Assembly: GCA_964019415.1 (NCBI GenBank)
Contig: OZ025871.1
Location: 4,432,129-4,496,128, forward strand
Direction: 5' to 3'
Source of the DNA: Ianthella basta
Lineage: Eukaryota > Porifera > Demospongiae > Verongiida > Ianthellidae
Length of the DNA stretch: 64,000 nt
The translations under genes were made by a program, and so were the position numbers. Positions within the stretch are counted from its first letter, which is position 1. The number at the start of each line of letters is the position of its first letter. Below are positions 2,036 to 58,499 of this stretch, piece after piece. Under the pieces are notes generated by a model that worked only from the letters and a program-made list of their open reading frames with translations, was not told the origin of the DNA and did no database searches.

Positions 2036-2058
2036 TGACGTCATAGCCGCCATCTTGG
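2036..2058 (+). promoter_or_regulatory. CRE-like plus YY1-like sites upstream of the NLR gene
   Basis: A perfect TGACGTCA palindrome (2036-2043) is followed three bases later by GCCGCCATCTTGG (2046-2058), the reverse complement of a YY1-type CAAGATGGCGGC site. It lies 1 kb upstream of the first coding exon and just before a probable non-coding exon, so it may be the core promoter. This is inference from motif and position. The same pair of motifs recurs near transposon 5' ends elsewhere in the window, so it could also be element-derived. Confidence 0.4.
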
Positions 2059-2069
2059 GATATCCCCTT

Positions 2070-2195
2070 CCTATCACGAGTTGGAGAGTTTCATGTACTG
2101 AGTGAAATCTGTGTAGCCACGTTGAGAGACGGCAAGAAATCCTAAATTAAGTCCTTCGTGGAATTGCCAACTGTGCACAGATCACGATCACTGAG
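2070..2195 (+). other. Probable non-coding first exon of the NLR gene
   Basis: A consensus donor (CTGAG followed by GTGAGTAT) at 2196 could splice to the acceptor at 3103 (TTTCTCTGCAG). The exon start is a guess from the promoter-like motifs. It contains a two-codon upstream ORF, ATG-TAC-TGA, at 2093-2101, which could dampen translation. No transcript evidence is available from sequence alone. Confidence 0.35.
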
Positions 2196-3108
2196 GTGAG
2201 TATTTCGTTAATACCGTACATAGCTAGCTAGCTAGCCAGGTAAATCGGCCCTTCAATCCTAGAGTGAACTGCCCGTTATTGAAGAGAACAGACTCTAGTC
2301 CCACTCCACTCTAGTGACATCCCTGCCACTCATGGTTGAATTGTGTGATTTCTCGCTTTCTTCGTTACTTGCCCGTCGCCAGTGTGTTTGTCGTGTGCGA
2401 GACAGCGGTAGCTAGTTAGCTAGCTACGTAATTAGCCCGTAAGATGGCTTTAATCGACTGGATTCAGTTGACACTGAGCAGAATGGTGTGTTGTACAATC
2501 TACGTACGTATTTCAGATGGCTTTCAAAGGGCAAATGGTGTGACGTCACTATCTTAATCAGTCAATGTTGCTTCTCTTTTGCTTCATGTCTATTGCCATG
2601 TAGGTAGGTACGTATTGCTTTTTGGCTACTTTGTCACTGTGGTCCCACCCTTATTGTGTTCCATTGAAAGCTGGGATGAAAGGGGAGCTAGCAAGCTAAC
2701 TATTTGTGTATGATGAAGGAGGCACCATGACAAATACCTTCTAAAAGGTTGCCAGAGATTGATTGCTATTACTAAATGATGGAGTTCATGCTCTATCTCA
2801 ATCAATAAAGCCTGGACTACCTGAGCCCTGTCATGATTGTGTCAAGTGTCTCAGCTAGACTTCAGTCCAGTCAATACTTGCTACTAGTAGATCCCACACT
2901 GGTGTACTGTTCCCACTCTTACTGCCTGTGCCCTGTACGTAAGGGGTGGTTAATGTCTGCCAGTTAAGGGAAGGTACACAAATGAACAGCTAATAGAAAT
3001 AGACTTGGCCCATGTGGATGTTGGTCAGGTTGACTTAGGTTGTGTGTAATGTATTGAATGGGTAACTATGGGTATCCAGTTTATCACTTTTCTTTCTCTG
3101 CAGGTGTC

Positions 3109-3523
3109 ATGCCTATATCAAATGAGCAGTGGCGTGTGGCTGTAGGACTGTGGGTTGCCCGCTTCCAGCGGACACTCATCATCAGGAGAGGAGTGAAGCG
3201 AGCAGAGTCCAGTCAGGAAGGTGCATCTTCTCCGTTAGGTCAATCACACAGTGGGGAAAAGAAGTCCATGCTAAAGAGAAAAGGGAGAAAGAAACACAAA
3301 GAAGACTCTTTGGGCAATCAGGTTATCACAGCTGATGACTTGTACAGTGGCTTGTGTGATCTTACACAAAACAGCAAGTGCAGAGACAGCACAGACAGGA
3401 GTCGGTTAAGCCCTTTGCTGGAGCTGTTAGAGTGCACCAAATGGACTTCACTTCTTGTTGTCATAATGATCCTCCTATTCCTAAGTGGTGACATTGAAAC
3501 TAACCCTGGACCCATGGAGAGAG
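3109..3523 (+). CDS. NLR exon 1: leader module ending in a 2A ribosome-skipping motif
   Basis: The exon follows an acceptor at 3103 and ends at a GTAGGT donor at 3524. Translation starts at the first ATG after the acceptor and gives 138 residues plus one base. Residues 1-30 are Trp/Arg-rich, about 62-75 are strongly basic (KRKGRKKHK), about 110-126 are hydrophobic (LLVVIMILLFLSG), and 127-135 read GDIETNPGP. That matches the D-x-E-x-N-P-G-P consensus of 2A peptides, with the usual Leu-rich stretch before it. In known 2A sequences the ribosome skips the Gly-Pro bond (here 134/135), so residues 1-134 would be released and the rest of the receptor would start at Pro. N-terminal 2A-like motifs are known in sea urchin NLR proteins. 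The donor phase (1) fits the CARD exon at 5937. The function of the leader is unknown. Confidence 0.85.
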
Positions 3524-3862
3524 GTAGGTAGTTGTGGTTCAATGAAGCATTGTGTCCTAGTACTGGTCATGTCAGCAGTCACTGGTTGTGCTTCTTATTT
3601 GACTGTTATCTTGGGCAGGACTCGCTGCTAGATGGAGATTTGTTTATTGTTAATGGTCAGTTTACACAAGTCATGAGGCACTTATTGCGCAGCAGTAATA
3701 CAGGTCACGTTAGCAGTCACTGTTTGTGCTGCTTGCTTGACTGTGATGTTGGCCGGAGTCCAGACTAGCTGTTAGTTACTGGTTTGTGACATAGAGCTAC
3801 TGAGGATGACAGGGTTGAGGACTTTGTTTGTCATCTTTTATAATTATTATGTGCTATTGGCA

Positions 3863-4490
3863 TAGCGTAAGCTGCCAATTATTGACCACTTTTCATACCT
3901 TGGAGCGTAACTTGGGCGCCGAAGGTTGCAGAAGCTTGATTCTTGCGGTGAAAGATAGCTGAACAACAGGTTGTCCTGTCCAGCCATTTCAACTATAACT
4001 ACATTCATTGCCTAAGTGCTCGCCATTTCCGTGGACCCGGTGATAGACCAATTATCGACCAAGCGTACAATTATTGACCGCACATACAAATGCCTATACC
4101 AATTATTGACCGATACACAGAAATCGTTTAGTAACTTTGCTTCACAATAACTCAGCAATCTAGGATTGACCAGGAATGCAGAGCAAGGTGTGCCACGTTG
4201 TAAAGCAGATTTCGAGAGGAAGGCTGGTACTGTTCGCAAGTTATAATGCGTTCAGACAAGACGCGTACACGTTTACTCTTCGCTCCGCTACGATTTTCTT
4301 GTAAATAAATATTTCCCTCTCTTAATTAAAGACGACGGCTAATGTTTACCAGAGTCTGCAGGAAGCCTTCTATCAATGCGCAAAGGTCCCTCACTCTGTT
4401 TACAGTTCCGTAAAAGTGAACTATTCGTGCATGTTTCAGGATACTACCGATCGATAATAGGTACTGGTCAATAATTGGCAGGTTACGCTA
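3863..4490. mobile_element. Non-autonomous TIR element, probable TA target site
   Basis: The ends are inverted repeats of about 30 bp: TAGCGTAAGCTGCCAATTAT at the left and its near-perfect complement ending GGTTACGCTA at the right. Counting TA as the duplicated target, the element runs GCGTAA...TTACGC. The motif CAATTATTGACC occurs in the left end, three more times inside (about 4048, 4068 and 4099, one with a change) and inverted in the right end. No transposase is encoded. It lies in the first coding intron of the NLR gene. Confidence 0.65.
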
Positions 4491-5936
4491 CTCTCACACA
4501 GAGGTGAGAATAACAGAAGATGTGTCCTGGCTATTTATTGAAGTATGCCAATTGCGGGCATGTGGTACTGTCCTATAAATGATATGTAAACAGCTAATTC
4601 AGTAACAGTGAATCAGTCTCAGGTGACCAGACCGTACTGACAACAGGATACTATTTGCTGTTTGCTATAGGCTACTATTAGCCATTGTCTGTTGTGAGCA
4701 CTGAAAGTGAATGTTCAGTGCTGTCTTGATTGAGTTATCTCCCATGTACCCCCCCTTAGTATGGGGTGTGTCCAAAGTCACTAGGCAATGTGCTAAACTA
4801 TAGTAGCTACAATGCATATGTGCCAACTATCCTGATTTAGGCGGAACATGCCTTACATCAGGCAGATGTCCTTCTGTCAATTCTCTGTGTGTTGCCTTTG
4901 AAGAGTTCTGTGCTCAGCTTTTTTGGCCAAAGTCCCACAGGATACTGACTGGTTAGGATTTATGTACCATAGCGGATCCAAACTTTAGCGAAATGTGTTT
5001 GAATGCTCATTTATTTTAGCCTACTCAGTTGGACCGTGTAATTGGCAGAATAGGTATTGTAAAGCATTCATGTGACTGTAGACATTGAAAAATTTAATAT
5101 CTACAATTCTACGTAATAACTACCCACCGTTATGTATAATGACATCATGAAAATTTTTGTGAATATAAGCTGATGTGAATTTGTCTGCACCAATAGTACC
5201 ACATCTTAATTAAAAGGCATACACAGTATGTGTGGTTGTTGATCACTGAGTCTTGAGCCTAGATAGGGCAGAGAAGATCAAGATGATAACACTGATTTAC
5301 TATAAGCTTCACAAAGTGCATTTGTTGGATCCTATTACACTTCAGCGGAATATTCTTAGTGGGTTTTTGGCTTGGGCATGTGTGCTAGTTTGGAGTAATG
5401 ACATTATGTTGCATCACCAAACCACCTAGCACATGCATGCAAGGTGAACATTTGGGAAGCTGAATTTGTGAGAAGGTGATGTAAAGGTGGATGGATGCTG
5501 TCCTCTATAGTGTATCACCAACAGAAATGCTTGTAATAGTACAAAACCATCCTCTAGTATGACTTTGCAGTACTTCTGTATACATACATAGTTGTTGCCA
5601 TTGTAGCAATTTGATAGAGGCTTTCTACACCGCTGCATTTTGCTGTTGCATGTACTTGATCAGTGCATTAGTCATCCCATAACTAGGTCAGTGTAATACT
5701 TGATACTGTAGAGGCTTATTGTTGTAGGCTCTTCAAAAGGGAATTAATGAGCAGATTTATGTGGCACAAATAAATTGATAACAGAATGTTTCGGCAGAAC
5801 AGAATGTTACTGTAGAGGCTTATTGTTGTAGGTATGTCGGATTAGGTTCACATAATATTTTAGTAGTCATTGCCTCTGTGTAAGTGTTGTGAAAATTGAA
5901 ACACACATCCCCCTTCCCCACTGTCCTGTACTTCAG
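4491..5936. other. Rest of NLR intron 1, no gene seen
   Basis: No coding signal. A 25-bp direct repeat (TACTGTAGAGGCTTATTGTT and following bases) occurs near 5706 and again near 5808. A stretch at about 4823-4920 resembles one at 8066-8160 (CAACTATC.TGATTTAGG.GG...), suggesting an old dispersed repeat. Confidence 0.5.
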
Positions 5937-6263
5937 ACAGCAGAAGCCATCCCATGAGTCGTTGGAATGATGCTGCCTTAGTTTCTCTAAGAGACAAGCT
6001 CAAACTGAATGTACAATTGAGCATGGGTCTCAGTGATAAACTGGAAAAGCCAGCAGGTGGCTTTATGAGTCGCGATGAAGCTCAGACGATAATGCAACTC
6101 CCTAACAGCAGGGAACAGATTAACGGAGTCATTGAGTCCCTACGTGGTAAAGGAGATGAAGACTTTCAGACATTCTGTGTGATGCTGCGAGAATGCAATT
6201 ATGCTGTATGGGCAGATGAGCTGGAGAGGGAGGCTGAGCGCTTCAAGGCAAGAGGAGGAAAAG
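5937..6263 (+). CDS. NLR exon 2: CARD domain
   Basis: The exon runs from an acceptor (CTGTACTTCAG) to a GTACTG donor. It joins exon 1 in phase (G+AC) and is open throughout, 109 codons. The product has the helix pattern of a caspase-recruitment (CARD) death-fold domain: an N-terminal Leu-rich helix, GGFMSRDEAQ, then a linker with NSREQ, then the typical ESLRGKGDEDFQTFCVMLRE stretch, which resembles the L-P-x-K-G-x-x-A-F-x-x-F signature. CARDs recruit partners by CARD-CARD contact in the cytoplasm, which fits an effector domain in front of NACHT. A DEATH domain is the main alternative. It ends in phase 1. Confidence 0.8.
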
Positions 6264-7738: not shown

Positions 7739-7803
7739 TAGACAGAAGAGTAGGAATATCTGAAGGAGGGTCATCCTCAATGAACAGTGAGGTTAATATG
7801 GAG
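7739..7803 (+). CDS. NLR exon 3: short linker exon
   Basis: Sixty-five bases between a pyrimidine-rich acceptor (CTTTTGCTTTGCAG) and a GTAGGT donor. The exon supplies the missing phase step: it accepts phase 1 from the CARD exon (G+TA) and leaves phase 0 for the NACHT exon. The 22 residues (VDRRVGISEGGSSSMNSEVN...) are Ser/Gly/Glu-rich, as expected of a flexible linker. The bridging of two otherwise incompatible phases is the main support. Confidence 0.7.
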
Positions 7804-11943: not shown

Positions 11944-13787
11944 CAGTCCAACTTCTTAACACGAAATCGATTAATATGAAAAAATGCTTAACATGAAGGA
12001 GGATTTTTTAGGTCCCAACATTTTGCCTATACACTCCTGTACAATATGCTATGGATAACACGATTATGGATATGAATTTTTGGATAACGTGAGGAGTATT
12101 TCTTGTCTTGGTGTCATTTTTGATTGTTTAGCACGAAAATGGATGCTAAGCAGAAGGTTCTCTCAACTAAGGATAAGGTTGATGTCCTGAATACTGTGGC
12201 TAAGCGTTTAAGTGAATATGGAGCCAAGGGGAATTTGAAGATAGCCAAGGAATTTGGAATTGCAAATTCAACGCTGTCCACGATCATCAAAGACAAGAAG
12301 ATCTTGGACGCCTTTGAACAACCTGTGTTTAAGCCTGGCAGGAAATGACTGAGGACAGCCGCTCACCTAGATGTCGAAGAAGCACTTGTCATTTGATTTA
12401 AAAGCATCCGAGACCAAAGCGTCCCTGTATCTGGGAGCATTCTTCGGGTGAAAGCAGAGGAGCTTGCTAAGGAGCTGGGCCACGTGGAGTTCCAGTGCAG
12501 TAGCGGCTGTTTGCAACAAGTCAAAGAGTGGCACGCTATTGTTCAAAAGAAGATGTGTGGTGAAATTGCATCGGTAAGTGTGGGAACGTGTGAACTGTGG
12601 ATAGAACACACTTCGCCTACCCTCTTTTACAAGCTCCTTCTAAATAAGACGTTGTGCTTCAAGAATCAGCCATGCCATGGTGGAAAACACAGCAAGGACA
12701 AGGTCACAGTTTTAGTTGGGGCAAATGCAGATGGTAGTGAGAAGCTTCCTTTGCTTGTTATAGGGAAGAGCAAAAAACACGATGTTTGAAAATGTCAACT
12801 CACTGCCTGTTGTGTATGATGCATCAAAGACAGCCTGGATGAATCTCCCATCTTCAAATCATGGCTGCGTCAACTTGACAGTCGTTTTGCTCGCCAACAA
12901 CTGAAGTTTTATTGCTCCTAGACAACTGCCCTGCACATCCAGTCATTGAAGTTTTGACCAGCATCAAGGTTGTCATGCTGCCAGCCAATGCAACATCAAA
13001 ACTTCAACCCATGGACCAAGGGATTATCAGCAACCTCAAGGCTTTGTATCGGAATGAAGTGTTGTCCAAACTCATCTGTTCGTTAGACAGGGGTGCTGAT
13101 TTGTCTGTGACTCTTTTGGATGCATTACGCTACATCAGTGCAGCATGGGATGGAATATCCCAAACCACAGTACAGAAATGTTTTCAGAGGTGTGGGATAG
13201 GGAGAGACCCTGAGCAGGGTGCAAGCGATGACAATGCACCAGTACAATCTGAGATACAACAGCAGTTACAGCTTATACAGCATTCTGGTATGACTGGTCT
13301 AGAAGGCATCACTCCTGAAGACTACATCACAGTTGATAGTGAAGTGATGGTTGCTGAAGAACTGACAACAGAAAGCATAGAGTTGCTCAAGTACGGTACA
13401 AGAACAGTGATGAAGATGATGAGAATGATGAGGAAACTGATGACACTGAAGAAGAACCAGCTGTAGTTGTGACACTGTCAGAAGCTCTAGCATCCATATA
13501 TAAGGTCCGGCAATACTTTCAAGCACAAGAGGGAACTGCCCAGTTTTTTTACAGGAATAGATGCACTGAAGAAATTCATGGAGAAGCAATTGCTACCATC
13601 TTGTCAAACTACGATAACAGATTATTTTTCATTCAACTAAGTCTAACTTGTAGCTATGACTTGTTTAAGCTGTTTGTAGCCTTTACGTATCAACTCTGCA
13701 GTTTTCAATGTGTACTGTTAACATGAAATACTGTTACCAAGAAACAATTCTTGGTCCCATGAATTTTGTGTTAAAGAGGTTGGAGTG
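11944..13787 (+). mobile_element. Dead pogo/Tigger-type DNA transposon
   Basis: Terminal inverted repeats CAGTCCAACTTCTTAACAC and its complement (GTGTTAAAGAGGTTGGAGTG) are flanked by TA at both sides (11942-11943 and 13788-13789). Inside lies a broken transposase on the plus strand. A size of 1.84 kb and a TA target fit the pogo/Tigger group. A palindrome GAGAGTACTATCGTACTCTC lies just upstream. Confidence 0.85.
12139..13466 (+). pseudogene. Tigger/pogo transposase (CENP-B-like), broken
   Basis: The reading frame is split in three. The first part (12139-12348) is a CENP-B-type helix-turn-helix (IAKEFGIANSTLSTIIKDK). The second (12448-12789) holds the second DNA-binding helix region and the start of the catalytic core (GSEKLPLLVIGKSKKH). 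The third (12912-13466) has LLLDNCPAHP, with the second catalytic Asp, then LPANATSKLQPMDQGII, a hallmark of this DDE family, and an acidic tail. Stops and frameshifts between parts make it non-functional. Confidence 0.85.
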
Positions 13788-14149
13788 TAGCAACTTAATG
13801 TGTCTATATACATACGTATACTGTGTAATGTACTAGACGCTACCTCCTTTCTGCCGGCATGTCTTGATTCTCCCAAGCGATTGCTTGAGCTGGTATTGTG
13901 GACGTAAGTGAGCCTAAGGCGGATTTGGGTCTGCTAAGCCATCTTTATGCTGTTTGCACTGCATGTAGAGCAGCAACCTGCACTTTTCTTTTTGTCTAAC
14001 CGTATCATATTGTAGTTAATTACAGTATTATTTGCTGCCAAATTTTTGTATAATTTCTAATATTGGCGCCACTTAAATAAATAATATTTATTTAATCATA
14101 CAAAGAATGTAAGATAATATACTGCCAAAATAGAATTAATGATATTATA

Positions 14150-15112
14150 CATCTAAAAAGAAAGTCATCAGAAGCCTAAAACTAAACTGAAAGTCAACCC
14201 TCCCTGTGCAGTGGGTGGTTGGCTGAGCCCATGGAGCCCATGACAGATGCTGCATTACATGTAGGGCCACCGACACTTGTTGGATAAGGAAGGATCTGGC
14301 CCTGACCTCCTGTGTGGCCAGTCGAATGCGTCTACCTATCTCAGTGAAGAGGTTGAAGCCTCTGTCCCAAAGGCACCGGATGTCTCCACCCACGACTGGG
14401 ACGAAGTAATGAGTTCAGAAAAGGATCTCATACTTGCTCCTTTTCCTCTGCTCTGCCAGGCCTATGACAGCTCGTGCTTCCGTTACCCCCTGAGCCAGAT
14501 GGGAAGCCATAAACGTGTCAGTGCAGGAGACGTCTCAAACGAGCATGCGGCCTGCCCGCCATGGGGCAATCGTCACCCCATCCGGCCGCTTGCTATTGGA
14601 CCTGCTAAGGGCAGTGGGCTCCAATGTGGAGGGGATCTGGGCAGACGACAGGGATGGCTTCACTATGTCATTGATCACCGCATGGCGTGAAAGGCGACCT
14701 GCACTTCTGATACAGGTGAGTCCATGGGTTGCCTACTCATCTACTGGGGCACCGCAAAGCAGGCAGGCATGGGAATGGCACAAGGGAGTACCCAAACGAA
14801 GACCAGCTGCAGTCCTCACCAGCTCATCATCCATACAGAGTCTGAGTCTTGAGACTGGTAGCGCGTTCAACCATGAGCCTGACTCGCTCGTAGCAGCTGC
14901 GAGGAGCCTGGCTTAGGTTCTGGGCTCTGCGACAGCACTCAGCAGCTTTTGAAAGCTGGCCCGCATGCGTGGTTCATCCCACATTCTCTACTTGGTGTTC
15001 TCTGGGCTGGGGGAGGTGGCTGGTTGTGCCCCATACGCCACACGTGGACAGCCTCCTCCACTGCTGGGTCAAAGATACTGCATAGTCTTCGAAGGAGATC
15101 TGACTGATGAGC
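14150..15112 (-). pseudogene. 3' fragment of an RLE-type LINE (zinc knuckle and nuclease)
   Basis: Read on the minus strand, a heavily mutated frame shows a zinc knuckle (CLLCGAPVDE..ATHGLTC), then LSRHAVIND, then SKRPDGVTIAPWRAGRML and RKRSKYE, ending with a GRRI...FLIQ tail. This order (CCHC knuckle, R-x-x-H, then RPDG and K) is that of the C-terminal restriction-like endonuclease of early-branching LINEs. Several in-frame stops are present. It belongs to another subfamily than the copy immediately to its right. Confidence 0.65.
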
Positions 15113-15285
15113 TTTGAGCAACCAGTAGCATTTAATAATAATAAATAGTAATAATATTATAAAAATAAAAAATAAAAGATAATAAATAATATTAAGAGAC
15201 AACTAAAACAGAAACTATTAAGAACATGCAGCCTAGTCATCGTCAGCAGTGGGGGAATAAGCCCCGCAAATGGAAAAAATGTAAT

Positions 15286-18123
15286 CTAGTCAATGTCGCT
15301 GACAGGGAGTGATCCCAGCATGGAGGCCGCATTGCCTACTTGGATGGCAACGGAGAGGCACCGGAGCAGGTAGGCAAATGAACTGGGCTCTCCAGTTACA
15401 GACCTGAGGTGTTTACCGAGGTTTAGGAGAAAAGACATAGACTCAGGCCCGACTGTTCCACAGGTTGCAAAGGCTACAGACTGGAACAGGTAGGCATGAT
15501 CCAAATGGGCATACTTCTTAGCCTTCCCAGACTCGGCGAGTGCAGCGGCTCCACCACCCTCTCTGGCTGTAGTTGGCTTGCGAGAGTCACAAAAGGTGTC
15601 TACACATGTGGCGTCCCACACAAGGAATCTTCCGTTGGACCAGGGTACCATTGTCACTCCGTCTGGGCATTTGCTGTCTTTCCGGAAGAGATTGGATGGT
15701 TCCAATCTGCTGGGTATGTTAGCAGAGGCCAGGGAGTGATGGATGATACTGTTTAGCATATGATGACGGGGGACTCTCCCTTTGCTGAACCTACAGCTCA
15801 GCCCATGATGACCAAATTCATCTACAGGATGACCGCAGGAGCTGCAGGGGTGTGGTAGACAAATGGGAGCACCGACACGCAGGCCAATGGCTGTGCGGAC
15901 CGCATCATCTGACATGCAGAGGCCCAAAGAGGAGATTGGGAGTGCGTTAAGCCAAGCTCCAGACTCGCGGGAGCTTGCCCCGAGGATATGGGAGCAGGAG
16001 GTCTGGTCAACACACCGGGCCAGGAGGTTGTCAAGGTGAAGCTGGATAATGGGCAGGTCCCAAGACTTCTGATGATTGAAGTTGGTGGGGAGGGGGGTGT
16101 CTGCTGGCAGAGCACCCTTCCAAGCAGTGAGTGCACGGTCCTTGGAAATGTATGGGACAGACAGAAGGTGAGGTGGTAAGAGCTTTAACATGAGCCAAAA
16201 AGGCTGACGGCGCAAGACTAGAGCAGCTCCGGAACCCAAGGCCACCCTGGTTGACAGGAAGGGTCACTTGGCACGAAGACAAATCATCAAGTTCAAAGCA
16301 GATGTTGGTTATCCTGTAGACAATAGACCTTAATAAGTTGTCCCAAGTTTCCAAGAAGGGAGATGAGAAGGCAGGGGATGTTCGCAGGATGTGCAGGAGT
16401 TTTGGAATGGAGAAAGAATGGCGGAGAATGGTAATGGCGTCATGCATGGACAGATGGCACAGTCGCTCCCCAATTAGCTTCAACTGATGTAGTTGTTCCT
16501 GCAAAGAAAGGTGCATGGCTGCACCACCTAATGGGGATCCCAACAATTGAGCATGCTCGACATCAGTGAACTGCAAATCAGGGAGAGATGAGAGGAGGGA
16601 GGAAACAGCAGACTTATTATGAGAAATCACCTCTGACTTGTTGATGTTTAAAACTAGCCCGAACTTTCCCACACTTTCATTTCTTGCTGAGTCATTTTAG
16701 AGGTCTTGTAAATCACCACCAATTGTGCCATCATCTAGATAAAAAACATTGAACTCGGATGACAAGGAGGACACGAGATCATGGATCCCTAAGCAGAACA
16801 ACATGGAACCTAAGGGGTCTCCTTGCAGAATACCCTCGGCTGAGCTAAGCTGAACGCCATCCCACAGGAGAACAGATGGAGCACTGTAGGCAGAATGCAC
16901 ATAGGGAAGTAGATCTGGGTTGTATCCTTTAACTGCCTCCAGCAGTTTGTTTCGACGGATGCTGTTGAAGGTGTTCTGGAAGTCCACCTTGACAAGTGCT
17001 CTGTTGGATGGCAGGTGGGCAAGGTATACTCGGCTGGCATGTATAGCTGCCTCAACACCTGTTGCAATGCCAAAACCCAGTTGGTGGGGAGCCAACAGAT
17101 CAGGGATTGAAGCCAGGGCATGGAGGCAGGCACATTTGGAGATCAGCCTTCTCAGTGTGCAAACCACAGCAATGGGCCGGACCCCACCGCTCTTCTTAGT
17201 GAGGGCTGAAAAAGAAGGGCCGAATGGAGGGCGGTGTTTTCCCTTCCAAAACAAGGGTTACAAGACCCACCAGAGCAGACAAGAGGGATGCCCCACCATC
17301 ACCGGCTGAAGGACTAGTAAGGTCCTTAAGATGTTGGGGGAGCAGACCATCAGAGCCACCACCTGAACCATTTGGGAAGGATGATATGACTTTCAGGATA
17401 GTGGCGATGTCGACTGTCCAGGGGAGAGGGGTGGCAGGATCCGGAGCAGGGATGAAGGAGTCAGAGGAGGGAGAAGGGTGCTTTGCTTTAAGGGCTTCCA
17501 GGGTGACAGTACTGTGTTCTGCGAACCCGTCCTCGCTACTGACTAGCCTAACTGCCCCTTTGTAGTTGCCCTCCTCAAGCTTACTCGAGACTCTGGATGC
17601 TAGAAACTCGGTGTTGTTACGTTTTTGAGGTGGACGGGTGGCACGGGGCTCCACAGAGGGGGTGGATTCCTGAGACACTTGGTTGTTAACCAGCGCGGCT
17701 AGGCTCTACCGCTTACTGCCTCTGGCTGTTGTTAAAAAGCATCTCCTGGGGAAGGAGAGCAATCTAGTCCACGCGGGCTCATCATTCCTGGAGACGACCA
17801 CTCGTATCACCTCCGCGAGCTTTCTGGCGGCTGTAACTCTTGACAAGTGGGGAATCCTCTTCAACATCCTTTTAGGCTGGCTTAGAAAATCTCTTAGGGA
17901 ATCGAAGTTGTTCAGATCCCGCTGACCTGATGGTTGAGTGACAGGGGGGCGAAGGATCATTGGAAACAATGGAGGCACTTTCAGGAGGTGACGATGAAGA
18001 TGAAGAACCCGAGTTCTCACAACGATTCTCACAATGATTGGTAATAGACGTGGAGGGTCGGCAGTCTACGCATGATCCTCTATTCTTGACACACTGACAC
18101 CTTACACAACAACCATTTTTCAT
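15286..18123 (-). pseudogene. RLE-type non-LTR retrotransposon, copy A (decayed)
   Basis: Minus-strand frames in order: a Cys-rich N-terminus (CVRCQCVKNRGSCVDC, about 18110-18050), a linker, then reverse transcriptase (GGVRPIAVVCTLRRLISK; motif A VKVDFQNTFNSIRR; motif B LQGDPLGSMLF; motif C FYLDDG near 16740), a thumb region, a zinc knuckle (CSSCGHPVDEFGHHGLSC) and a PD-(D/E)XK-like nuclease (CPDGVTMVPW, VWDATCVDTF, KKYAHLDHAY). No apurinic endonuclease domain is visible, as in R2-like LINEs. At least five frameshifts separate the parts. An AT-rich tail follows at about 15125-15200. A YY1-like CAAGATGGCGGC (minus strand) sits just 5' of the ORF near 18175. Confidence 0.85.
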
Positions 18124-18256
18124 GCACGGACAGCACCAGCAGAGTTGGAGGACTGACGTTGGCAGCGCAGCACTGCCGCCATCTTGTAATCTATTATTAT
18201 AATAATCTCATAATAATCTTATAATCTGATAATAATCTTTGTCTCTTATTTACTTA

Positions 18257-18910
18257 CTGTATGGCAGGAAATTTTGGCAGATTGCTGAAATTTCTGTATT
18301 TGGTGGAATTACTTTGGCACATTGGCAAAGCCTGTGCCATAATGATATTCATATCAAAATGGCTACTCCGAGTGAAAAGAGCAGATTGCTGAAGAGTCTC
18401 TGTCTGAGGAGTGCACGTGCTGTTGTTTCACCATGATTGAATTATTTTCGTTCCAATCCTTTGCTTTTCCCACGAATGCTGCAGCGTACAAAGGCTTTTA
18501 AGCTTCCTTTTGGCAGATCTGCTGACGCTCGCCTGCAGCCTGACCTCGCATACAATCGTACCACTCCAACGTAGAAACAGAGAACAGGCTGCTGAAATCT
18601 GCTGCAGTAAGTTACCCACAGTGATCTCAACGTCAGTCTTTACAGTGACCGCATATAAGATGCCGTTCCGATTGCCTTCGGCTTCCTTGCTCTCTTCTTC
18701 CACCTCCAGTGTGCAAAACAATATGGAAACGTAGTGTCCTCGCTCTGCTGTCAGTTGTGAACTCAATGCTGACGATTAATCTATAGGCCTGGCGCAACCA
18801 GGCTTGTTAAGGGAAAAACCATACGATTGCACAAATTTTGGCGGAAGAAATATTGGAAGACTGCTCTCAAAGCCGCCAATCCGCCAAAATAAATTCCCCC
18901 GGCCATACGG
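18257..18910. mobile_element. TA-flanked TIR element carrying a HIRAN fragment
   Basis: The ends are CTGTATGGCAGGAAATTTTGGC and the complement of CCGTATGGCCGGGGGAATTT, each next to TA (18255-18256 and 18911-18912). The inner part of the TIRs repeats TTTTGGCGGA-like words. No transposase is encoded, but the middle carries a gene fragment on the minus strand. The CTGTAT/CCGTAT ends are shared with the MITE at 41.9 kb. Confidence 0.65.
18450..18760 (-). pseudogene. HIRAN-domain gene fragment
   Basis: One minus-strand frame reads CTLEVEEESKEAEGNRNG, then ITVGNLLQQISAACSLFL and GTIVCEV. A shift to a second frame gives ASADLPKGSLKAFVRCSIRG. This matches the HIRAN-like pattern E-x-x-N-x-x-D-x-x-A-V-x-V ... 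VGH-x-P-x-x-IS ... FL-x-R-x-G-x-I-x-C-x-V ... LP-x-G-x-LE-x-PC. HIRAN domains bind DNA ends in helicase-like repair proteins, but stand-alone versions are common in marine invertebrate genomes. The frameshift and the host element suggest a captured, dead copy. Confidence 0.5.
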
Positions 18911-18968
18911 TATCCCTATTATTAGTAATATTGTAGCATCATTTATTATTAATAATATTAAACAATAA

Positions 18969-19456
18969 TCTTATTATAATAAACGTAATGCACATTTTCG
19001 TTGTCCGGGATAATCTCCTTCAATTCTGGATGAAACGTTACGAAACTTGTTAGGATTACGAAGAGGGGAACTGTGAGTAACCTCGCCGAGCCGAAATTTG
19101 GTTTAAGGTCGTTCCGTCCGAGTTCTTGCCACTTTTACGTTTGCCACCATATCTAAGAGATAGGGAAAAGATTGTGTTTCGTTGTGCACAAACTCCTCCT
19201 TCAATTTTTCACCAATCCTCGCCAAACTTGGAAGAGTATATCACGGCAATACGGTGGGTGATCTAAGGTGGTTAGCGCCTTCGCCGCTGAACTCTTTTAG
19301 ATGAAATGGATTAACATAAGTAAATTCTGTACGCACGGAGTTTTATGGAGCGAGTCTACGGAATGCTCCCAATTAAATGGACGGTTTTGATTGGTTAAAC
19401 GCTCCAATTTTAAACGATATGCTGGGAACCCACCTGAAGGGTGGGCATTCAGCTAG
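18969..19456 (+). mobile_element. Non-autonomous Helitron-like element, copy 1
   Basis: The element begins TCTTATTATAATA directly after an A and ends CTAG directly before a T. Seven bases before CTAG is a perfect six-pair hairpin, CCCACC-loop-GGTGGG (19429-19445). A 5' TC, a 3' hairpin plus CTRR, and insertion between A and T without target duplication are the Helitron hallmarks. Two more copies share both ends. No Rep/helicase is encoded. Confidence 0.85.
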
Positions 19457-19885
19457 TTATTGTAATACGAGCAAGCTTTCTGCCCATAGCTTACTTCGCC
19501 ATAGAGAAAGGGCTTTCAGCAGCCCCGAGCGCTGACAGCTAAAGTACCCTAATAACGAAACATAAATAGTTAAAATACCCATGTACCGATAGCCAGAGCA
19601 GTTCCCTCGCACCAGAAAATAACTTTAAACTTCTGTGCAAGTGCGCTGCGCATCGTGCCTGAGAGACCCAAACTGAGGAGCGCGGAGTGTCTAAGAGACG
19701 GCTGGCTGCGGGGCACATGCACACTGCCAGAGTGGTCATGTTTGCGGTTACGTCATTTTGTCGTCCAATCAAATGCCCGTTTTTAATGTCATGCACAAGC
19801 AAGCGAACAAACGAGCGAACGAACGCGCAGACTGGAAAACATTAAATTATTCAGGATATTAAGGATATAATAAAAAAATAATAAA

Positions 19886-20335
19886 ATGTTGAATAGCACC
19901 ATCTATCACTCGTTAACTTCAGCAACATCCCCAGCAGACTTGAACCATCTAGCCTTCACAGAGCTGATGGAAGTGCCTGGATGGGGTTACCCTCATACCA
20001 TAGACGGACGGGAAATTCTTTGTGTGGGACGCAACATACGTGGACTCTTTTGCGACTCCCACATTCGTGCATCGTATAGGGAAGCAGGAGGAGCTGCAGC
20101 CGCGGCAGAGAAGGACAAGCTTAGAAAGTACACTCGCCTTGACAGGTCTTATGTGTTCCAACCTATTGCACTGGAAACCTGCGGGTCAATAGGTCCATAT
20201 TCATTGTGCTTCCTGCCCAGGCTGAAGTCAGCCACAGGTGAGCCCTAGTCTTTCACATACCTGCTCCAGCGACTATCCGTGGCCATTCAGATGGGGAACT
20301 CTGCCTCTGTGCAGGCACTTTGGAGCTGTTAGGAC
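19886..20335 (+). pseudogene. RLE-type LINE 3' fragment, plus strand
   Basis: The frame starts MLNSTIYHSLTSATS and continues with FCDSHIRASYREAGGAAAAA, LRKYTRLDRSYVFQPIALET and SATGEP, the same order as the nuclease end of copies A and B. The RPDG motif is lost. It is a 5'-truncated fragment in the opposite orientation to the other copies and ends just before the piggyBac insertion. Confidence 0.7.
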
Positions 20336-20388
20336 TCCAGTCTACTGATTGATCAATCGTTCAATTGAATTGATTGATTTTATTTGAA

Positions 20389-22624: not shown

Positions 22625-23306
22625 TTGATCAGTATGATTCTACAATGTCATGCGTGTCTGTCTTTCTTTCTTTTTGTCTGCTGCATGCATTACACTGTTT
22701 AATGTTTGCGATTTTCTCGATTTGACCAAATTCGCAAAATTTTTCTTCACGAATTTTCTCCACCCATCATTATAATTATATGCAAACGTCATAATAAGAT
22801 GGCCGCTGTGTAGCACAGAAGTGGATTTAGCTATTTAAGTGCTATCTTACTGTTCCGTGCTCAAAAATTCCCTTCAGCTAAGTAGTTTGCCTGCCAAGGA
22901 GTTGTTTTAAAGGTTGGAAATCGCAAAATTAAAACCGCAAAATGTTTGGTTTTGAACAAAATCGCGAAATTTTCTTCCGTGAAATTTTGCCGCTATATGG
23001 TAATGCACATCTTATTATTTTGCATAAACACTTATGTACTTCCCCATTAAGGCATTTATTTCATCTTCTCATTAATCAATTATATAATAATATGATGACA
23101 ATGGGCAAAAGGTGGAGAAAGAGATGATGCAACTGTTTCAGTCAGCATATCATGTGCATGAATTTAAATTAATGAATAATTTAATAAATAAATTAATGAT
23201 GTAATTGAACATTAATGATGAATTAAACAATCAAATTATATGCACATTCTAACATTACAGATGCTAGGTAAATAAGCATGCAGAAATCATCATAGCAGCT
23301 AAACTG
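22625..23306. other. No gene; MITE-like repeats and AT-rich tail of LINE copy B
   Basis: The words TTCGCAAAATTTTTCTTCACG (about 22730) and TCGCGAAATTTTCTTCCGTG (about 22962), ending CGCTATATGGTA, look like ends of a further TA-type MITE; the borders are unclear. From about 23150 to 23240 the sequence is nearly pure A/T (ATTAATGA words), the likely 3' tail of the minus-strand LINE to the right. Confidence 0.35.
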
Positions 23307-27478: not shown

Positions 27479-29129
27479 CAATTTTCCAAGAGACTGCAGG
27501 CTCATTATGCAAAGATGAAGGTGGTGGATGACAAGTGGCGTAAAAGTCAGTCCATTGAATTTGTCAAATTGTCTTTATCTCGCTTTAAATTGGACTTTCA
27601 AGATGCACAGAAGAAGTTTGTTGAAGCTATTTCTGATCCGGAGGGGGTTGACAATGTGTATACTGTGGTGAAGAATGCTAAAATCGTGTATGAGGACATT
27701 CCGACAATGATAAAGGAGTGGAAGCTTGTTGTGATCAGTGGTGCTCCTGGTGTGGGTAAGAGCACACTGGCCAAGAAACTATGTAAAGACATGTCAATGA
27801 AGATGAGTGATCACGAATATAATTTGGTGCTGTTGGTGGAGCTGCGAGATTTGATTGCTTTCAAAGACCTCAATGAGTCTTTTGAACTACACCATATGTT
27901 ACAGTTATTCTGCAATTCAAAGGATAAGGCAGCTAGTATTGCTAAAGAGATGATAGCTAACAGTGGTAGAGGCACCCTTCTCATTCTTGATGGATATGAT
28001 GAGCTTCTACAGGAACTGCGTAGGTCTCCTTTCTTCCTCAGTTTACTCATGCATTCTCCTAATTCCTCTCTACCTGAATGTGATGTAGTGTTGACGTCAC
28101 GCTCCATCATTACAAGTCAAATTTACCAGGTCTTTGATAGTTCTGGCATTGCATGTAATTTTGTGAATGTTGAGGTGTTAGGGTTTACTAAAGGACAGAT
28201 AAATCGCTATGCCCAACAGTACTTTAAAGAAGAAGGGATGCCAGAATTGAAAGATTCATTTGCAGAGAGAATCAGTATGCTACCTCAGATTAGGAGTCTG
28301 TGTTCCATCCCTATTGTTTTATCTATCATTTGTCGAGTGTACCTGAAATACAATGACCTACCATCTACATTATCAGCTGTCTATGAAAGGTTTGTAATAG
28401 ACAAGCTTCTCATCAACTCTGTTATTGCGGGTAGGCCTGGATGTGTTCAGTCTCTGCTGGACCTACCTAATAAACATACATTTTACAGTCTTTGTGAAGT
28501 TGCGTTTTTGCGAGTCAAGGAGCAGATAGTAGTCTTTTTGATGGATGATGGCCAGATGGTGGGAATTTCTTCAGCATACTCTGACCGTGCTAATGGATGT
28601 GGGCTGCTAACAGCAAGACCGGTTAATGAGTTTGGTTTTGCAGTAGTTGCAGTTGACAGTTTCTACTTTATCCATTTGACAGTGCAGGAGTTCCTCAGTG
28701 CCATCCACATCTCTAAATTGGACATTGCAGCTCAGAAGAAGATCTGGAGTGAGTACCTTGGACAGCCCCACATGGCCCAAGTGTGGAAGTTCTTCTGTGG
28801 GATCACCAGTCTAGAGAATTTTGAAGCTTTGCAGCTGAACTCAGAAGTTAGTGATAAAGAGGTCTTAGTGCAGTCTCTCTTTGAGTCACAGAATAGTGCT
28901 GTGACTAAAGAGGCAATGCAGGCTGCTTTCGGTGACAGCCCAACAGTGATGCCAAGGAGTCCATACAGTGCAATTGCCTATGGTTACTGTTTGCAGCAAC
29001 ACAAGAGCATGAAGAATCTCACCATCAATTGTGCAAGAAGTGTCCGTATTCACCTTGGCAACCTTCTCTCTCCTGTGCTTCAGACAGCTTCTGGTTTGCA
29101 CTTGACGCTTTATAACTGTCACCCTAAAG
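27479..29129 (+). CDS. NLR exon 4: NACHT ATPase, winged-helix region and first LRR
   Basis: A 1651-base exon from a CTCCTTTCAG acceptor to a GTGAGC donor; phase 0 in, phase 1 out. After a short linker with DDKWRKSQ the product shows a classical NACHT nucleotide-binding domain: Walker A GAPGVGKST (27740-27766), Walker B LLILDGYDEL (about 27978-28007) and sensor-1 VVLTSRS. The arginine/winged-helix region follows, with IPIVLSIICRVYL and a later FYFIHLTVQEFLSAIHIS, typical of NLR HD2 segments. The last 40 residues start an LRR (LGNLLSPVLQ...LTLYNC). NACHT domains drive ATP-dependent oligomerisation of cytoplasmic immune receptors. All key motifs are intact. A single large NACHT exon is usual for invertebrate NLR genes. 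Confidence 0.95.
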
Positions 29130-31674: not shown

Positions 31675-33054
31675 CTCCTGGATGTGTTCTAACTAATACA
31701 CAAATGCAGATCTATCTGGTACTTCTGTCACCCTTCAGTCACAAATGGTACATGTCAGAGACCAAGTAGTGATCTCAGGAAATTGATGCAACACTATGCT
31801 GAATAATAGTAATATAAGGTGTATAAGGTGGTCATCACAGGACCTAAACTATTAACAGAAATTTCGTATAGCAGGAAAGTATATAGTATGGGAGTATATT
31901 ATCACAATGCCAAAAATTGACCCAAAGTGTAAATTTTGCAATAATATTTTTGCGTTTTGCTGAACAGATAAGACACGCCCCTTGAAAATGGCAGCTGACT
32001 ACACACTTGCTGCTGGACTACCACAGAACACTTTGGAAATGAAAAATTTACATACGGCAGAATTTACACTCCACTCCTCTGTCGTTTTGCAAGTGAGAGG
32101 ATGCCTCATTGCGGCGTTGTGTTAATACACCCTATACCAAGCGAACAACCAGTAGTCTCCACTTTCCTTGCCATGTGTAGTTCCGAACGTTGTCTTTTCA
32201 TTCGTGTCACCATGGTACATAGACCATCTTAATTAGTCTTCACTTTGCCCATTTACTACAGACAATTAGCTATGTATCTTCACTGCTTCATTAATAGCTG
32301 TGATAGTGGAATGCGGTTCTATTGTTGGAAGTGCACTATTTACTTTACCTATATATGCCTAAAGGAGGCTATAATACCATCATCTTGTTTTAGTTCGCCA
32401 CCAAATGTATTAAAAGCCTCATGCAAAATGGTTGGAGAGAATATTTGTGTATCCTATCCGCATAAATTGTGATAATATTCTATGGGACTATGGAAATTTT
32501 CCTCTTTATGGTATTTGTGGACTTTCTTGTTTCTTCTTAGGGGTCATTGTAACTCTGACTGGTTACCTTTCAATGCTTTCTGTCAGATTCAGCCAGAGTA
32601 AGCTAGCTTTCGAATTCAATGTTCCCCCCTACTTACATGCCTTTCAATCTAGGATATAATGATTTGTCCTGTTGCCATTGCAAAGGGGAAACTAATTAGT
32701 TGTAAACCTCATTCTAATGCACACTTATATAGCCTCAATCTTGAATTGTGAAAAGTGGATTATTTGATAGAAACGAATTTGTTTGCAGTTTGATCATAAT
32801 ACATTCTGATCTAAGCAGAGAAACTGTGATGGAATGAATAATTAAATGTTACTAGTGACTTGTGATCCTATGCATCCTATATTAAGTGAACAGGCACTTA
32901 ATAAATATGTTTTTGAAATCTTGAATGTTTTGAATACCACATTGGTTCACTCTATTCTTCCATGATCTCTTTAGATTGGAGAGAAGCTGTCAAGTCTCTG
33001 ACAATGCATGAAGAAAGACAGGATGCCAAAAGTGAGTCATCTCTTTTATACATA
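31675..33054. other. NLR intron 4, no gene seen
   Basis: Open frames here are short and AT-rich, without recognisable domains. No terminal repeats are seen. Confidence 0.5.
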
Positions 33055-41622: not shown

Positions 41623-41753
41623 GTGGTAGTGCTCAGGAATGCATAGAGAGCATCTCTTTGAAACTAGTCCCACTTGATGTTGTGTGTGATGTAGTGAGGA
41701 TCTTTGAACATGTGAAAGAGCTTCAGTGTATGAACATCACCAATCCATTGGAG
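41623..41753 (+). CDS. NLR exon 5: LRR exon A1
   Basis: 131 bases, phase 1 in (G+GT), phase 0 out, GTATGC donor. Encodes LKLVPLDVVCDVVRIFEHVK and ends ELQCMNITNPLE. It is homologous to exons A2-A4 but the most diverged of them, so it is probably the oldest unit. The Leu/Val spacing fits the helix-strand alternation of LRRs. Confidence 0.82.
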
Positions 41754-44520: not shown

Positions 44521-44529
44521 TTAGCCGCT

Positions 44530-45740: not shown

Positions 45741-46179
45741 ACCTTGGCAGCTGATGACTGTTGACTTGATGCAATGCTAATAGTGTCAATATTTCACTGT
45801 ATACAGTTGTGGTGTATGCAATGCTCATCTTGAGTCATGCCTTACCTTCAGGTACATACGTAGACTGGTTTTGAATGTGCAATACTAGAAATCATTCTTC
45901 CCTGTCATTGTTGAAATGTACCTTGATATTTTCTGCCAAAGTTCTTGTTCAAATTTGCTACCACTGATTTGGTTGGAGCTCTTATGTTCTTTCATTCCAC
46001 CGTTCTCAAATGACGTAATCTCCATAGAAAGAGAGATGTACTAGTAATAGTTACTAAGTGACACTTAGAATACCTTAATATTTGATAATAATGTGTTGGA
46101 ATTAACTGTAATTTAGCCATTGCAGCTATGTAATTCCATTTACTGCTAAGTGGTACTGCACCATCACCTCTTCTATCAG

Positions 46180-46183
<4 letters not shown>

Positions 46184-46222
<39 letters not shown>

Positions 46223-46231
46223 GTGTGTGTG

Positions 46232-46273
<42 letters not shown>

Positions 46274-46282
46274 TGTGTGTGT
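46184..46282. repeat. (TG)n microsatellite
   Basis: About 100 bp of TG with GTGCGTG interruptions. The equivalent site carries only about 22 bp in unit 2 (52163) and about 140 bp in unit 3 (56563), so the tract length has drifted after duplication. Confidence 0.95.
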
Positions 46283-46972: not shown

Positions 46973-47183
46973 AGCCTGAGCCGTGACCTTCTAGACAAGA
47001 TGGCAACATCACTAGCTCAGAACAAGACAATGACAAAGCTGAAATTGCGGGGTGGTCGCTTAACATCTAATGAAGATATCAAGCTATTCACCCACCACCT
47101 CCTGTTGGGCCTCAGCAACAACACTACATTGACAGATTTGTCACTGATTCTACCAGAGCAGTGCTGGGACTGGCCTTGTGATG
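46973..47183 (+). CDS. NLR exon 6: LRR exon B1
   Basis: 211 bases, phase 0 in, phase 1 out, between CTCACTGCAG and GTGAGT. Encodes SLSRDLLDKMATSLAQNKT, then MTKLKLRGG and LLLGLSNNTTLTDLSLILP: two LRR turns with the L-x-x-N-x-x-L-x-x-L-x-L pattern. The residues after the first strand (RGGRLTSNED) differ from the other B exons. Confidence 0.9.
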
Positions 47184-47718
47184 GTGAGTTGAATGACAGC
47201 GTTTCATGTGTCACACTGACCTTGTAAGCTGTGATCATTGTCTGTAAACTGTAATGTGTACAGCTTGTCATACATTGCCTTTAGTGGTCCAGGCTCTCTG
47301 CAACTAGTGCTGGTAATGATAATGACCAGTGCAGATACTGACATGAAGGGTCTCAAAACTGTTCTCCATACAACCTGCACTGTGTGCTACCTGGGTCCTA
47401 GTGTTTCATATTGTTGTAGCTTTCTAGTTGTTAGTGACAGCTTGATATTGTCCACTTGTGGTTTGATGTACTAATCACTCACACACCTGTCATTTCATTA
47501 GGATACTTACATACATGGAATTAATGCAAGTAGAGATTCACTCACTTGTTGTTGATGTAATAGTAATGGTAGTAGGTAATTGTACTTGACTGCCAACCAT
47601 GGCACAACCCATGCAGTTCTAACTGTGTTGTGGAAGGCTTAATTGTCAATTGTGTGTAAACCTTATAATGGACCACACTCACTTGTAGCAGCTCATTTAC
47701 AAACCTTTCTCTCTACAG

Positions 47719-47849
47719 GCAATGTAGTGCAGAAGAGTGTGAAAAGGGGCACCTTATGGTATGTCCCACTTGATGTGGTGTGTGGTGCTGTGGATTACTT
47801 TGAACATGTGGAAGAACTGAAGTGTGGTAACATCAAGGACCCACAGCAG
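47719..47849 (+). CDS. NLR exon 7: LRR exon A2
   Basis: 131 bases, same phases as A1. Encodes VPLDVVCGAVDYFEHVEELK and ends NIKDPQQ. Reading on past the donor remains open for 18 codons (VHLYIFYILVV...) to a TAA. Confidence 0.88.
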
Positions 47850-48000
47850 GTACATTTGTATATATTTTACATCCTTGTTGTGCATTATGTATGCAGAGTC
47901 TGCTAACTCATAAGAGGAATACAGATAACAAACACCTGCTCCCTTTGATAAGCTAACATTAATGTAATACGAGTTAGCATGGCCTTTGGCCGTTCTTGCT

Positions 48001-52790: not shown

Positions 52791-53001
52791 AGCCTGAGCC
52801 GTGATCTTCTGGACAAGATGGCTACATCACTAGCTCAGAACAAGACAATGACAAAGCTGGAATTGCAGAGTTATGACGTATCATCTAATGAAAATGTCAA
52901 GCTATTCACCCACCACCTCCTGTTGGGCCTCAGCAACAACACTACATTGACAGATTTGTCACTGCGTCTACCACCACAGTGCTGGGACTGGCCTTGTGAT
53001 G
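52791..53001 (+). CDS. NLR exon 8: LRR exon B2
   Basis: 211 bases, same borders and phases as B1. Differences concentrate after the first strand (LELQSYDVSSNENVK) and near the end (SLRLPPQCWDWPCD); the framework is nearly identical. Confidence 0.9.
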
Positions 53002-53525
53002 GTGAGTTGAATGACAGTGTTTGATGTGTCACACTGACCTTGTAAGCTGTGAACATTGTCTGTAAACTGTAATGTGTACAGCTTGTCATACATTGCCTTT
53101 AGTGGTCCAGGCTCTCTGCAACTAATGCTGGTAACCATTGCCATGCAATGCTGGTATTGATGTTATTCTCCTTACAGCCTGCACTGTGTGCTACCTGGGT
53201 CCTAGTGTTTCATATTGTTGTAGCTTTCTAGTTGTTAGTGACAGCTTGATATTGTCCACTTGTGGTTTGATGTACTAATCACTCACACACCTGTCATTTC
53301 ACTAGGATACTTACATACATGGAATTAATGCAAGTAGAGATTCACTCACTTGTTGTTGATGTAATAGTAATGGTAGTAGGTAATTGTACTTGACTGCCAA
53401 CCATGGCACAACCCATGCAGTTCTAACTCTGTTGTGGAAGGCTTAATTGTCAATGGGTGTGTAAACCTTATAATGGACCACACTCACACTTGTAGCAGCT
53501 CATTCACAAACCTTTCTCTCTACAG

Positions 53526-53656
53526 GCAATGTGGTGCAGAGGAGTGTGGAAAGGGTCACCTTATCATGTGTCCCACTTGATGTGGTGATTAGCGTTATGG
53601 ATTCCTTTGAACATGTGGAAGAACTAAAGTGTGAGGACATCCAGGACCCACGACAG
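53526..53656 (+). CDS. NLR exon 9: LRR exon A3
   Basis: 131 bases. Encodes VPLDVVISVMDSFEHVEELK and ends DIQDPRQ. Reading through the donor adds about 20 hydrophobic residues before a stop. Confidence 0.88.
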
Positions 53657-56562: not shown

Positions 56563-56653
<91 letters not shown>

Positions 56654-56664
56654 TGTGTGTGTGT

Positions 56665-56704
<40 letters not shown>
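56563..56704. repeat. (TG)n microsatellite
   Basis: About 140 bp of TG with two TCTG interruptions, in the intron of unit 3. Confidence 0.97.
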
Positions 56705-56705
<1 letters not shown>

Positions 56706-57539: not shown

Positions 57540-57771
57540 AGCCTGAGCCGTGACCTTTTGGACAAGATGGCTATATCACTAGCTCAGAACAAGACGATGA
57601 CAAAGCTGGAATTGAGTAGTTTTAACTTCTTCCAGCAGTCGTTCACCCTAACACCTAATAAAGATGTCAAGCTATTCACCCACCACCTCCTGTTGGGCCT
57701 CAGCAACAACACTACATTGACAGATTTGTCACTGAGTCTACCACAACAGTGCTGGAACTGGCCTTGTGATG
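57540..57771 (+). CDS. NLR exon 10: LRR exon B3, with seven extra codons
   Basis: 232 bases, seven codons longer than B1 and B2 but in the same phases. The extra residues sit after the first LRR strand (LELSSFNFFQQSFTLTPNKD), the same place where B1 and B2 differ, so this loop is the variable site of the unit. The rest (LLLGLSNNTTLTDLSLSLP) is conserved. Confidence 0.9.
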
Positions 57772-58314
57772 GTGAGTTGAATGACAGTGTTTGATGTGTC
57801 ACACTGACCTTGTAAGCTGTGATCATTGTCTGTAAACTGTAATGTGTACAGCTTGTCATACATTGCCTTTAGTGGTCCAGGCTGTCTGCAACTAGTGCTG
57901 GTAATGATAATGATCAGTGCAGATACTGACTTGAAGGGTCTCACAGCTGTTCTCCTTACAACCTGCACTGTGTGCTACCTGGGTCCTAGTGTTTTAAATT
58001 GTTGTAGCTTTCTAGTTGTTAGTGACAACTTGATATTGCCCACTTGTGGTTTGATGTAGTAATCACTCACACACCTGTCATGTCACTAGGATACTTACGT
58101 ACATGGGATTAATGCAAGTACAGATTCACTCACTTGTTGTTGATGTAATAGTAATGGTAGTAGGTAATTGTACTTGACTGCCAACCATGGCACAACCCAT
58201 GCAGTTCTAACTGTGTTGTGGAATTAAGGCTTAATTGTCAATTGTGTGTAAACAGCTTATAATGGACCACACTCAAACTTGTAGCAGCTCATTTACAAAC
58301 CTTTCTCTCTACAG

Positions 58315-58499
58315 GCAATGTGGTGCAGAAGAGTGTGAAAAGGGTCACCTTACCAGGTGTCCCACTTGATGTGGTGTGTGGTGTTGTGGATTACTTTGAA
58401 CATGCGGAAGACCTCAGATTTGAGTATATCATGGCCCCACAGCAGGTACATCTATTAGTTGTTTTACAACGTTGTGTGTACAGTGCATTTGCAGAATAA
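58315..58499 (+). CDS. NLR exon 11: LRR exon A4, possible terminal exon
   Basis: The A-type part is 58315-58445 (VPLDVVCGVVDYFEHAEDLR...). A GTACAT donor follows, but no B-type exon is found to the right. Reading through the donor gives 17 more codons and a TAA at 58497-58499 that overlaps AATAAA (58495-58500). So this may be the last exon, making a protein of about 1229 residues before any skipping. The alternative is that the donor is used and the next exon lies outside the window. Confidence 0.7.

Follow-up and report, generated by a model that had tools for sequence, protein, structure and literature searches.

The stretch of sponge DNA analysed here (64,000 nt; hereafter the window, with positions counted from its first letter) carries on its forward strand a leader exon that ends in a 2A motif and meets a CARD-like exon in phase; elsewhere in the genome, a 2A motif lies upstream of nearly all related NACHT exons. 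The leader exon (3104..3523), as read from its translation and from the copies compared, is coding from the ATG at 3109 and provides a 134-residue leader, Pro135 and the start of the receptor. The window frame 3109-3540 translates as MPISNEQWRVAVGLWVARFQRTLIIRRGVKR...KKSMLKRKGRKKHK...LLVVIMILLFLSGDIETNPGPMERGR*; within it, 126 residues are followed by GDIETNPGP, the residues MER and one base left over at the donor, where position 3523 directly precedes gtaggt. The Gly of NPGP is residue 134 and its final Pro residue 135. An acceptor, ctgcag, judged good by eye, lies 5 bases upstream of the ATG. If it is joined by the donor 2195/2196 of a putative 5′ untranslated exon (2050..2195, forward strand; start uncertain, donor ctgag/gtgag, by eye), MPIS would be the true start of the leader, since an in-frame TGA would then stand just before the ATG (by eye). 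The segment 2050..2195 lay entirely inside blastn matches to 16 of the 28 other subfamily A loci compared (subfamilies are described below).

A sequence-only reading of this locus had proposed that the exon 3109-3523 ends in a full 2A motif and that the 134-residue leader has a basic patch and a hydrophobic end; both points held up. The motif GDIETNPGP (3487..3513, forward strand), supported by a motif count and by conservation among paralogues, obeys the D(V/I)ExNPGP rule for the C-terminal part of 2A sequences, the skip being predicted between 3510 and 3511. The D[VIM]ExNPGP codon pattern (GAYRTNGARNNNAAYCCNGGNCC) matched once in the window, against a mean of 0.00 and a largest count of 0 in 100 shuffles. 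The stretch preceding the motif, LLVVIMILLFLS, is hydrophobic, a suitable upstream context; L13 and L14 of the 2A tested in the sea urchin are present in it, and R11 is absent. Up to residue 104 the leader is basic (20 K/R against 11 D/E) and includes the patch KKSMLKRKGRKKHK (3259..3300, forward strand), whose K/R positions are mostly kept across copies. The 19-residue windows of highest hydrophobicity, 106-124 and 107-125, fall within a helix predicted at residues 101-125, and the segment formed by residues 105-126 (3421..3486, forward strand) is a candidate signal anchor or tail anchor.

The N-terminal 33 residues (3109..3207, forward strand) belong, the 2A aside, to the best-conserved parts of the leader, and the structure model places a helix at 5-27. 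That model is poor (AlphaFold pLDDT 53), which was counted against the explanation of this exon as a 2A leader. The leader matched no Pfam family at E ≤ 0.1 and no solved structure at E ≤ 1. An amphipathic N-terminal helix of mitochondrial type was rejected, the 18-residue moment being reached by 3202 of 5000 shuffles; this too was counted against the 2A-leader explanation. In the first 33 leader codons (3109-3207 and the paralogues) dS was below that of the whole leader (0.33 against 0.57 between subfamilies A and B, 0.042 against 0.090 within A), as if there were constraint at the RNA level too, or homogenisation of the copies.

The whole gene model, of 12 exons, encodes 1231 residues; its phases all agree and it contains no stop. 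The CARD-like exon (5937..6263; phase 1 at both ends) starts after ttcag, continues the leader frame (G+AC) and ends before gtactg; the phase-1 junction 3523/5937 bears out the earlier proposal that leader and CARD exons are in phase. It is followed on the same strand by a 65-base linker exon (7739..7803), a NACHT exon (27479..29129), a 57-base exon whose phases agree (32975..33031), a C-terminal 'b'-type exon (41623..41753) and three tandem a/b exon pairs at 46973..47849 (46973-47183 and 47719-47849), 52791..53656 (52791-53001 and 53526-53656) and 57540..58445 (57540-57771 and 58315-58445). From phase, splice sites and conservation we infer that the leader, CARD-like and NACHT exons are spliced into one mRNA.

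The encoded receptor had been described as CARD-NACHT-LRR. The NACHT part is certain (PF05729, 67.3 bits against a cut-off of 26.7, E 1.9e-18); this exon lies 21 kb beyond the CARD exon, with transposons in between. The CARD-like exon scored 19.4 bits with PF00619, below the cut-off of 23.9, and four copies of this exon gave 19.3-21.4 bits, all likewise below it. In a Foldseek search the best nine matches of the CARD-like exon were CARD entries or a CARD-based design (E 1.4-3.7, TM 0.35-0.39), and a comparison of its sequence with solved structures placed troponin C best (E 0.12), the first CARD, that of NOD1, having E 0.17. The LRR part found no support in Pfam: the C-terminal exons (the tandem a/b pairs) matched none of its LRR models at E ≤ 1. 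These pairs belong to three tandem units of 4.3-6.1 kb (43400-58450), one pair each, which extend the C-terminal region of the receptor and whose protein had no credible Pfam match. The ~20-kb intron before the NACHT exon contains (12879-26220) DDE_1 and DDE_Tnp_1_7 transposase and several reverse-transcriptase pieces, and an open frame on the reverse strand (59317-62429), with a short-repeat run at its end, showed weak matches to MULE/Mutator-type transposases. No RNA family reached its gathering score in the window.

Leader subfamilies and selection on the 2A motif

The long leader had 108 matches in the genome, of which 83, full-length or nearly so, were read and 25 partial ones set aside. 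Three subfamilies were distinguished: A, which is that of the window; B, with 22 copies on contig C2 and one on C11; and C. NPGP was kept in all 36 A leaders, all 23 B leaders and 17 of the 24 C leaders (76/83), and the strict form D(V/I)ExNPGP in 72 of the 83. The losses in subfamily C (NPDP, NPSP, NPNP, NAGP and NPGE, for example) suggest that the motif is dispensable somewhere, a point against the 2A-leader explanation. Six of the seven leaders that lost it are still open. This would fit a leader that serves simply to target the ER or as a type II signal anchor, without skipping and with GDxExNPGP kept for some other purpose (as a turn or processing site), and so would the hydrophobic helix directly before the motif and the basic patch on the N-terminal side of that helix. 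Such a role is nevertheless unlikely: the same motif ends leaders of quite different length and sequence, and LINE proteins as well, and its conserved and free positions match the 2A rule.

The latter point also draws on public relatives. These numbered 121 (55 first matches, plus 66 from the 120 listed of 176); some are fragments ending before the motif and some must come from this same genome. NPGP was found in 107 and the strict motif in 103, x being one of eight residues (T, P, A, S, R, M, V or I). This pattern of constant places around a variable x is that of the 2A rule. G127, D128 and P135 were invariant when the query was aligned with 41 of the 55 first matches; P0029, whose motif is broken at the final Pro, is among the sequences left out of the alignment, so that P135 is not invariant overall. 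The form DVEPNPGP, present in 23 public proteins, did not occur in this genome, in a scan that covered every x codon with C as its first base, and another genome therefore very probably has the leader too. One leader fragment, P0007, 90% identical, is filed as a protein of an alphaproteobacterial MAG; it is probably host DNA in a metagenome bin.

The leader frame was open from MPIS in 78 of the 83 copies, and the donor fell at the same codon in 82 of them, the window copy included. When left unspliced, the frame stops one codon past the donor in 34 of the 36 subfamily A copies. This stop would suit a leader exon that is a small gene of its own upstream of each NLR, with the CARD or Death junction unused, as would the finding that none of the 120 listed among 282 public matches is a leader-CARD-NACHT fusion; the listed matches cover the NACHT exon only, as unspliced frames would, and the missing fusion thus says little. 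An independent leader gene is improbable in view of the shared donor codon, of the in-frame phase-1 acceptors at both CARD-like and Death-like exons, and of 2A motifs recurring over megabases in front of CARD and NACHT exons. As had been proposed, the subfamily A leader is joined to the CARD-like exon. At the one C2 locus of subfamily B that was read (L100), the exon to which the leader is joined, again in that phase, is Death-like (PF00531, 22.2 bits, just below the cut-off of 22.6), with a NACHT exon further on, an arrangement that the sequence-only reading had missed.

The motif is under purifying selection within subfamily A: its nine codons gave dN 0.0028 and dS 0.162 (dN/dS 0.02), against a dN/dS of 0.60 for the leader. 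The corresponding ratios were 0.06 against 0.35 within B, and 0.23 against 0.54 within C, the value for C being too favourable as three C leaders with a broken motif are absent from it. The set used consisted of 76 of the 83 leaders; L034, L045, L085, L087, L088, L089 and L090 were dropped for an internal stop, lack of the MPIS start or a motif missed by the pattern, that of L085, L087 and L088 being broken. Comparing A with B or C (150 sampled pairs each), the 2A codons showed pN 0.10-0.13 and pS 0.78-0.80. Between B and C they showed no extra constraint (dN/dS 0.41, leader 0.40), and this was counted against the 2A-leader explanation, as were the ratios for the hydrophobic segment (0.70 for A-B, 0.98 for A-C and 0.22 for B-C). 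When the ratio of amino-acid to nucleotide change was computed within each subfamily for 130 windows along the leader, the 2A proved to be among the lowest: the windows as low as it, itself included, numbered 4 in A, 14 in B and 10 in C. Position 11 from the final Pro distinguishes the subfamilies: it is Leu in 35/35 aligned A copies and Arg in 22/22 B and 18/19 C copies (Q in the other).

2A motifs in the genome and their linkage to NLR exons

The pattern GD[VIM]ExNPGP matched 355 times in the 209-Mb genome, and a backward-reading control 0 times. The matches were classified from the loci read, which are part of the 355. Some were LINE proteins, in which the motif leads into a PHD-like or endonuclease region (by eye). 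Others were leader exons, which fall into at least four kinds: the long one, starting MPISNEQW; a shorter relative that starts MPISAQ(Q/E)W and ends in GDVELNPGP; and two short kinds, with GDVEANPGP or GDVEVNPGP at the end and ~26-30 residues long when counted from a nearby Met (by eye). Some short-leader copies, such as L117, have no such in-frame Met. The link of the short and middle kinds to NLRs is purely positional; short 2A forms were also found upstream of NLR exons elsewhere in the genome. Ten GDVELNPGP exons on the forward strand of contig C4 (4048149, 4686321, 5224460 and others to 8294092) each have a long-leader exon 6-24 kb downstream in the same orientation, and are of the MPISAQQW type in L134 and L135; they are either alternative first exons or separate genes. 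Three hybrid leader exons, L092-L094 (C4:12306132, 8921008 and 8597343), retain the latter half of the long leader, 2A included, and in place of the MPIS part have an in-frame Death-domain-like start (for example SSKPTLAELDEFIV...DGWEQVVLHL; by eye). At L097 (C4:9624471) a hydrophobic, Cys-rich stretch and then a basic tail come immediately after the 2A motif (GDVETNPGPAIIVSFVTVLCVCLLSTLCCCACCRWRRRHRYC); exact matches to the motif also lie at C4 9642957 and 9665477.

A search for NPGP near other NLRs of this genome had been suggested, and it proved positive. From 442 candidates, the 79 NACHT exons most like that of this gene were scored, using the 2A positions of contigs C1, C2 and C4 and one of C3 rather than all 355. 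A 2A motif on the same strand was present within 25 kb upstream of 76 of them, downstream of 16, and upstream on the other strand of one. In the region C4:3.9-8.4 Mb, 54 of 56 NACHT exons had a same-strand 2A within 25 kb upstream, against a mean of 20.4 and a maximum of 35 in 5000 circular shifts (within 15 kb, 38 of 56 against a mean of 13.0 and a maximum of 25), and a 2A lay inside 54 of the 55 gaps between neighbouring NACHT exons. For CARD exons (150 scored from 332 candidates; 2A positions of the CARD-bearing contigs and part of those of C2, minus three C4 positions), 61 had a 2A within 15 kb upstream. These were unevenly distributed: 36/36 in C4:4.0-8.4 Mb and 16/16 in C4:8.4-12.8 Mb (52/52 in total), against 0/16 on C8, 0/17 on C5, 0/9 on C6, 1/29 on C3 and 0/8 on C4 below 4 Mb (1/79); of the remaining 19, on other contigs, 8 had a 2A and 11 did not. 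This difference by contig indicates that the device is present in some NLR superclusters and that the exact motif is missing from others. The gene anatomy first read from the window holds; its scale, with superclusters and several leader kinds, had been missed.

The LINEs with an N-terminal 2A found in the same genome raise a further alternative, namely that the motif is a LINE remnant at the start of an NLR, spread by tandem duplication and now functionless. This is very improbable. The dN/dS of 0.02 at the motif within subfamily A already disfavours it, the leader frame leads to CARD-like and NACHT exons with no endonuclease or reverse transcriptase in it, and outside the motif the leader is unlike LINE N-termini (by eye only).

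Proposed products of the gene and comparison with known systems

The most likely reading is that the 2A skips, so that leader and NLR are released from each other, while leakage leaves some fused form inserted in the membrane; we put at roughly 70% the probability that this is a 2A-led NLR gene of that kind, one of dozens in a supercluster. The ribosome translating ...LLFLSGDIETNPG would fail to join Gly134 to Pro135 and release the 134-residue leader, basic and with a hydrophobic helix near its C-terminus; translation would then continue with the receptor, from Pro-Met-Glu-Arg. Where skipping failed, the hydrophobic segment would stay inside the fused protein and act there as a signal anchor. 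The fused form would probably be of type II, because the basic patch lies on the N-terminal side of that segment, and would take the receptor into the ER lumen or the secretory path. Three products could therefore come from one mRNA: the leader in the membrane, the receptor in the cytosol and, as a minor form, a membrane or exocytic receptor.

NLR expansions occur in sponge genomes. Those of Dysidea avara include CARD/Death-NACHT receptors, partly clustered as in the genome studied here, and membrane-spanning forms are mentioned (PMC12909245); the words 'ribosome' and 'skipping' are absent from that paper's main text. The earlier remark that 2A-like motifs are known at the N-termini of sea-urchin NLRs agrees with Roulston et al. 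2016 (PMC4981915). As given there, the N-terminal 2A of an S. purpuratus NLR is ~80% active, R11A and changes of L13 and L14 lower skipping, the product of an inactive-2A mutant goes mainly to the Golgi, a 2A is reported for 85 of 241 NLRs, and the 26-aa form occurs in 14 of 87 NCBI entries. On that account, sea urchin and sponge share an expanded NLR family, a 2A at or near the protein start and a hydrophobic stretch before it; L13 and L14 are kept in the sponge, and R11 in subfamilies B and C in the proportions given above. R11A cuts activity in the sea urchin and subfamily A has L11; this was counted against the 2A explanation, and A may leak more than B and C. The two systems differ in that the tested sea-urchin 2A consists of 26 residues at the protein start, whereas the window gene has its 2A behind a 134-residue leader with a conserved N-terminus and a basic patch, not within the first ~26 residues; the leader here precedes CARD-like and (at one locus) Death-like exons, and 76 of the 79 scored NACHT exons have an upstream 2A.

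APE-type LINE retrotransposons with an N-terminal 2A were reportedly described by Odon and colleagues in 2013. Such elements, present in this genome (by eye), likewise have the 2A behind a hydrophobic stretch; they are dispersed and continue into a PHD-like or endonuclease region, whereas the leaders described here precede CARD-like and NACHT exons in tandem clusters. Among the open literature listed, 2A in NLRs came up in the sea-urchin work and in a picornavirus paper mentioning NLRs; in the available part of a recoding review containing both NPGP and 'sponge', the latter concerns mitochondrial frameshifting (PMC5009743). Within this literature, the kind of NLR 2A is known from the sea urchin, where it was described, and the sponge host, the scale and the leader appear new.

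If the two-product reading is true, stop-carry-on translation has a broader place in animal innate immunity, beyond the sea urchin, and annotation of these genes as single fused proteins would misplace the receptors. The genome offers a ready experiment, with dozens of natural 2A variants, some lost, on otherwise similar receptors, and a comparison set in the NLR clusters without 2A on other contigs. Tentatively, and with the balance of probability against it, one may go further: whole NLR superclusters of an early-branching animal might consist of two-product genes, which would make the sea urchin and this animal either two independent inventors or joint inheritors of a very ancient mechanism; in these genes the leader, made 1:1 with the receptor, would have a protein function of its own (as a partner or decoy of the receptor, anchored in the membrane) and inherited differences in the 2A (L11 or R11, V or I, a broken NPGP) would set the ratio of cytosolic to membrane receptor.
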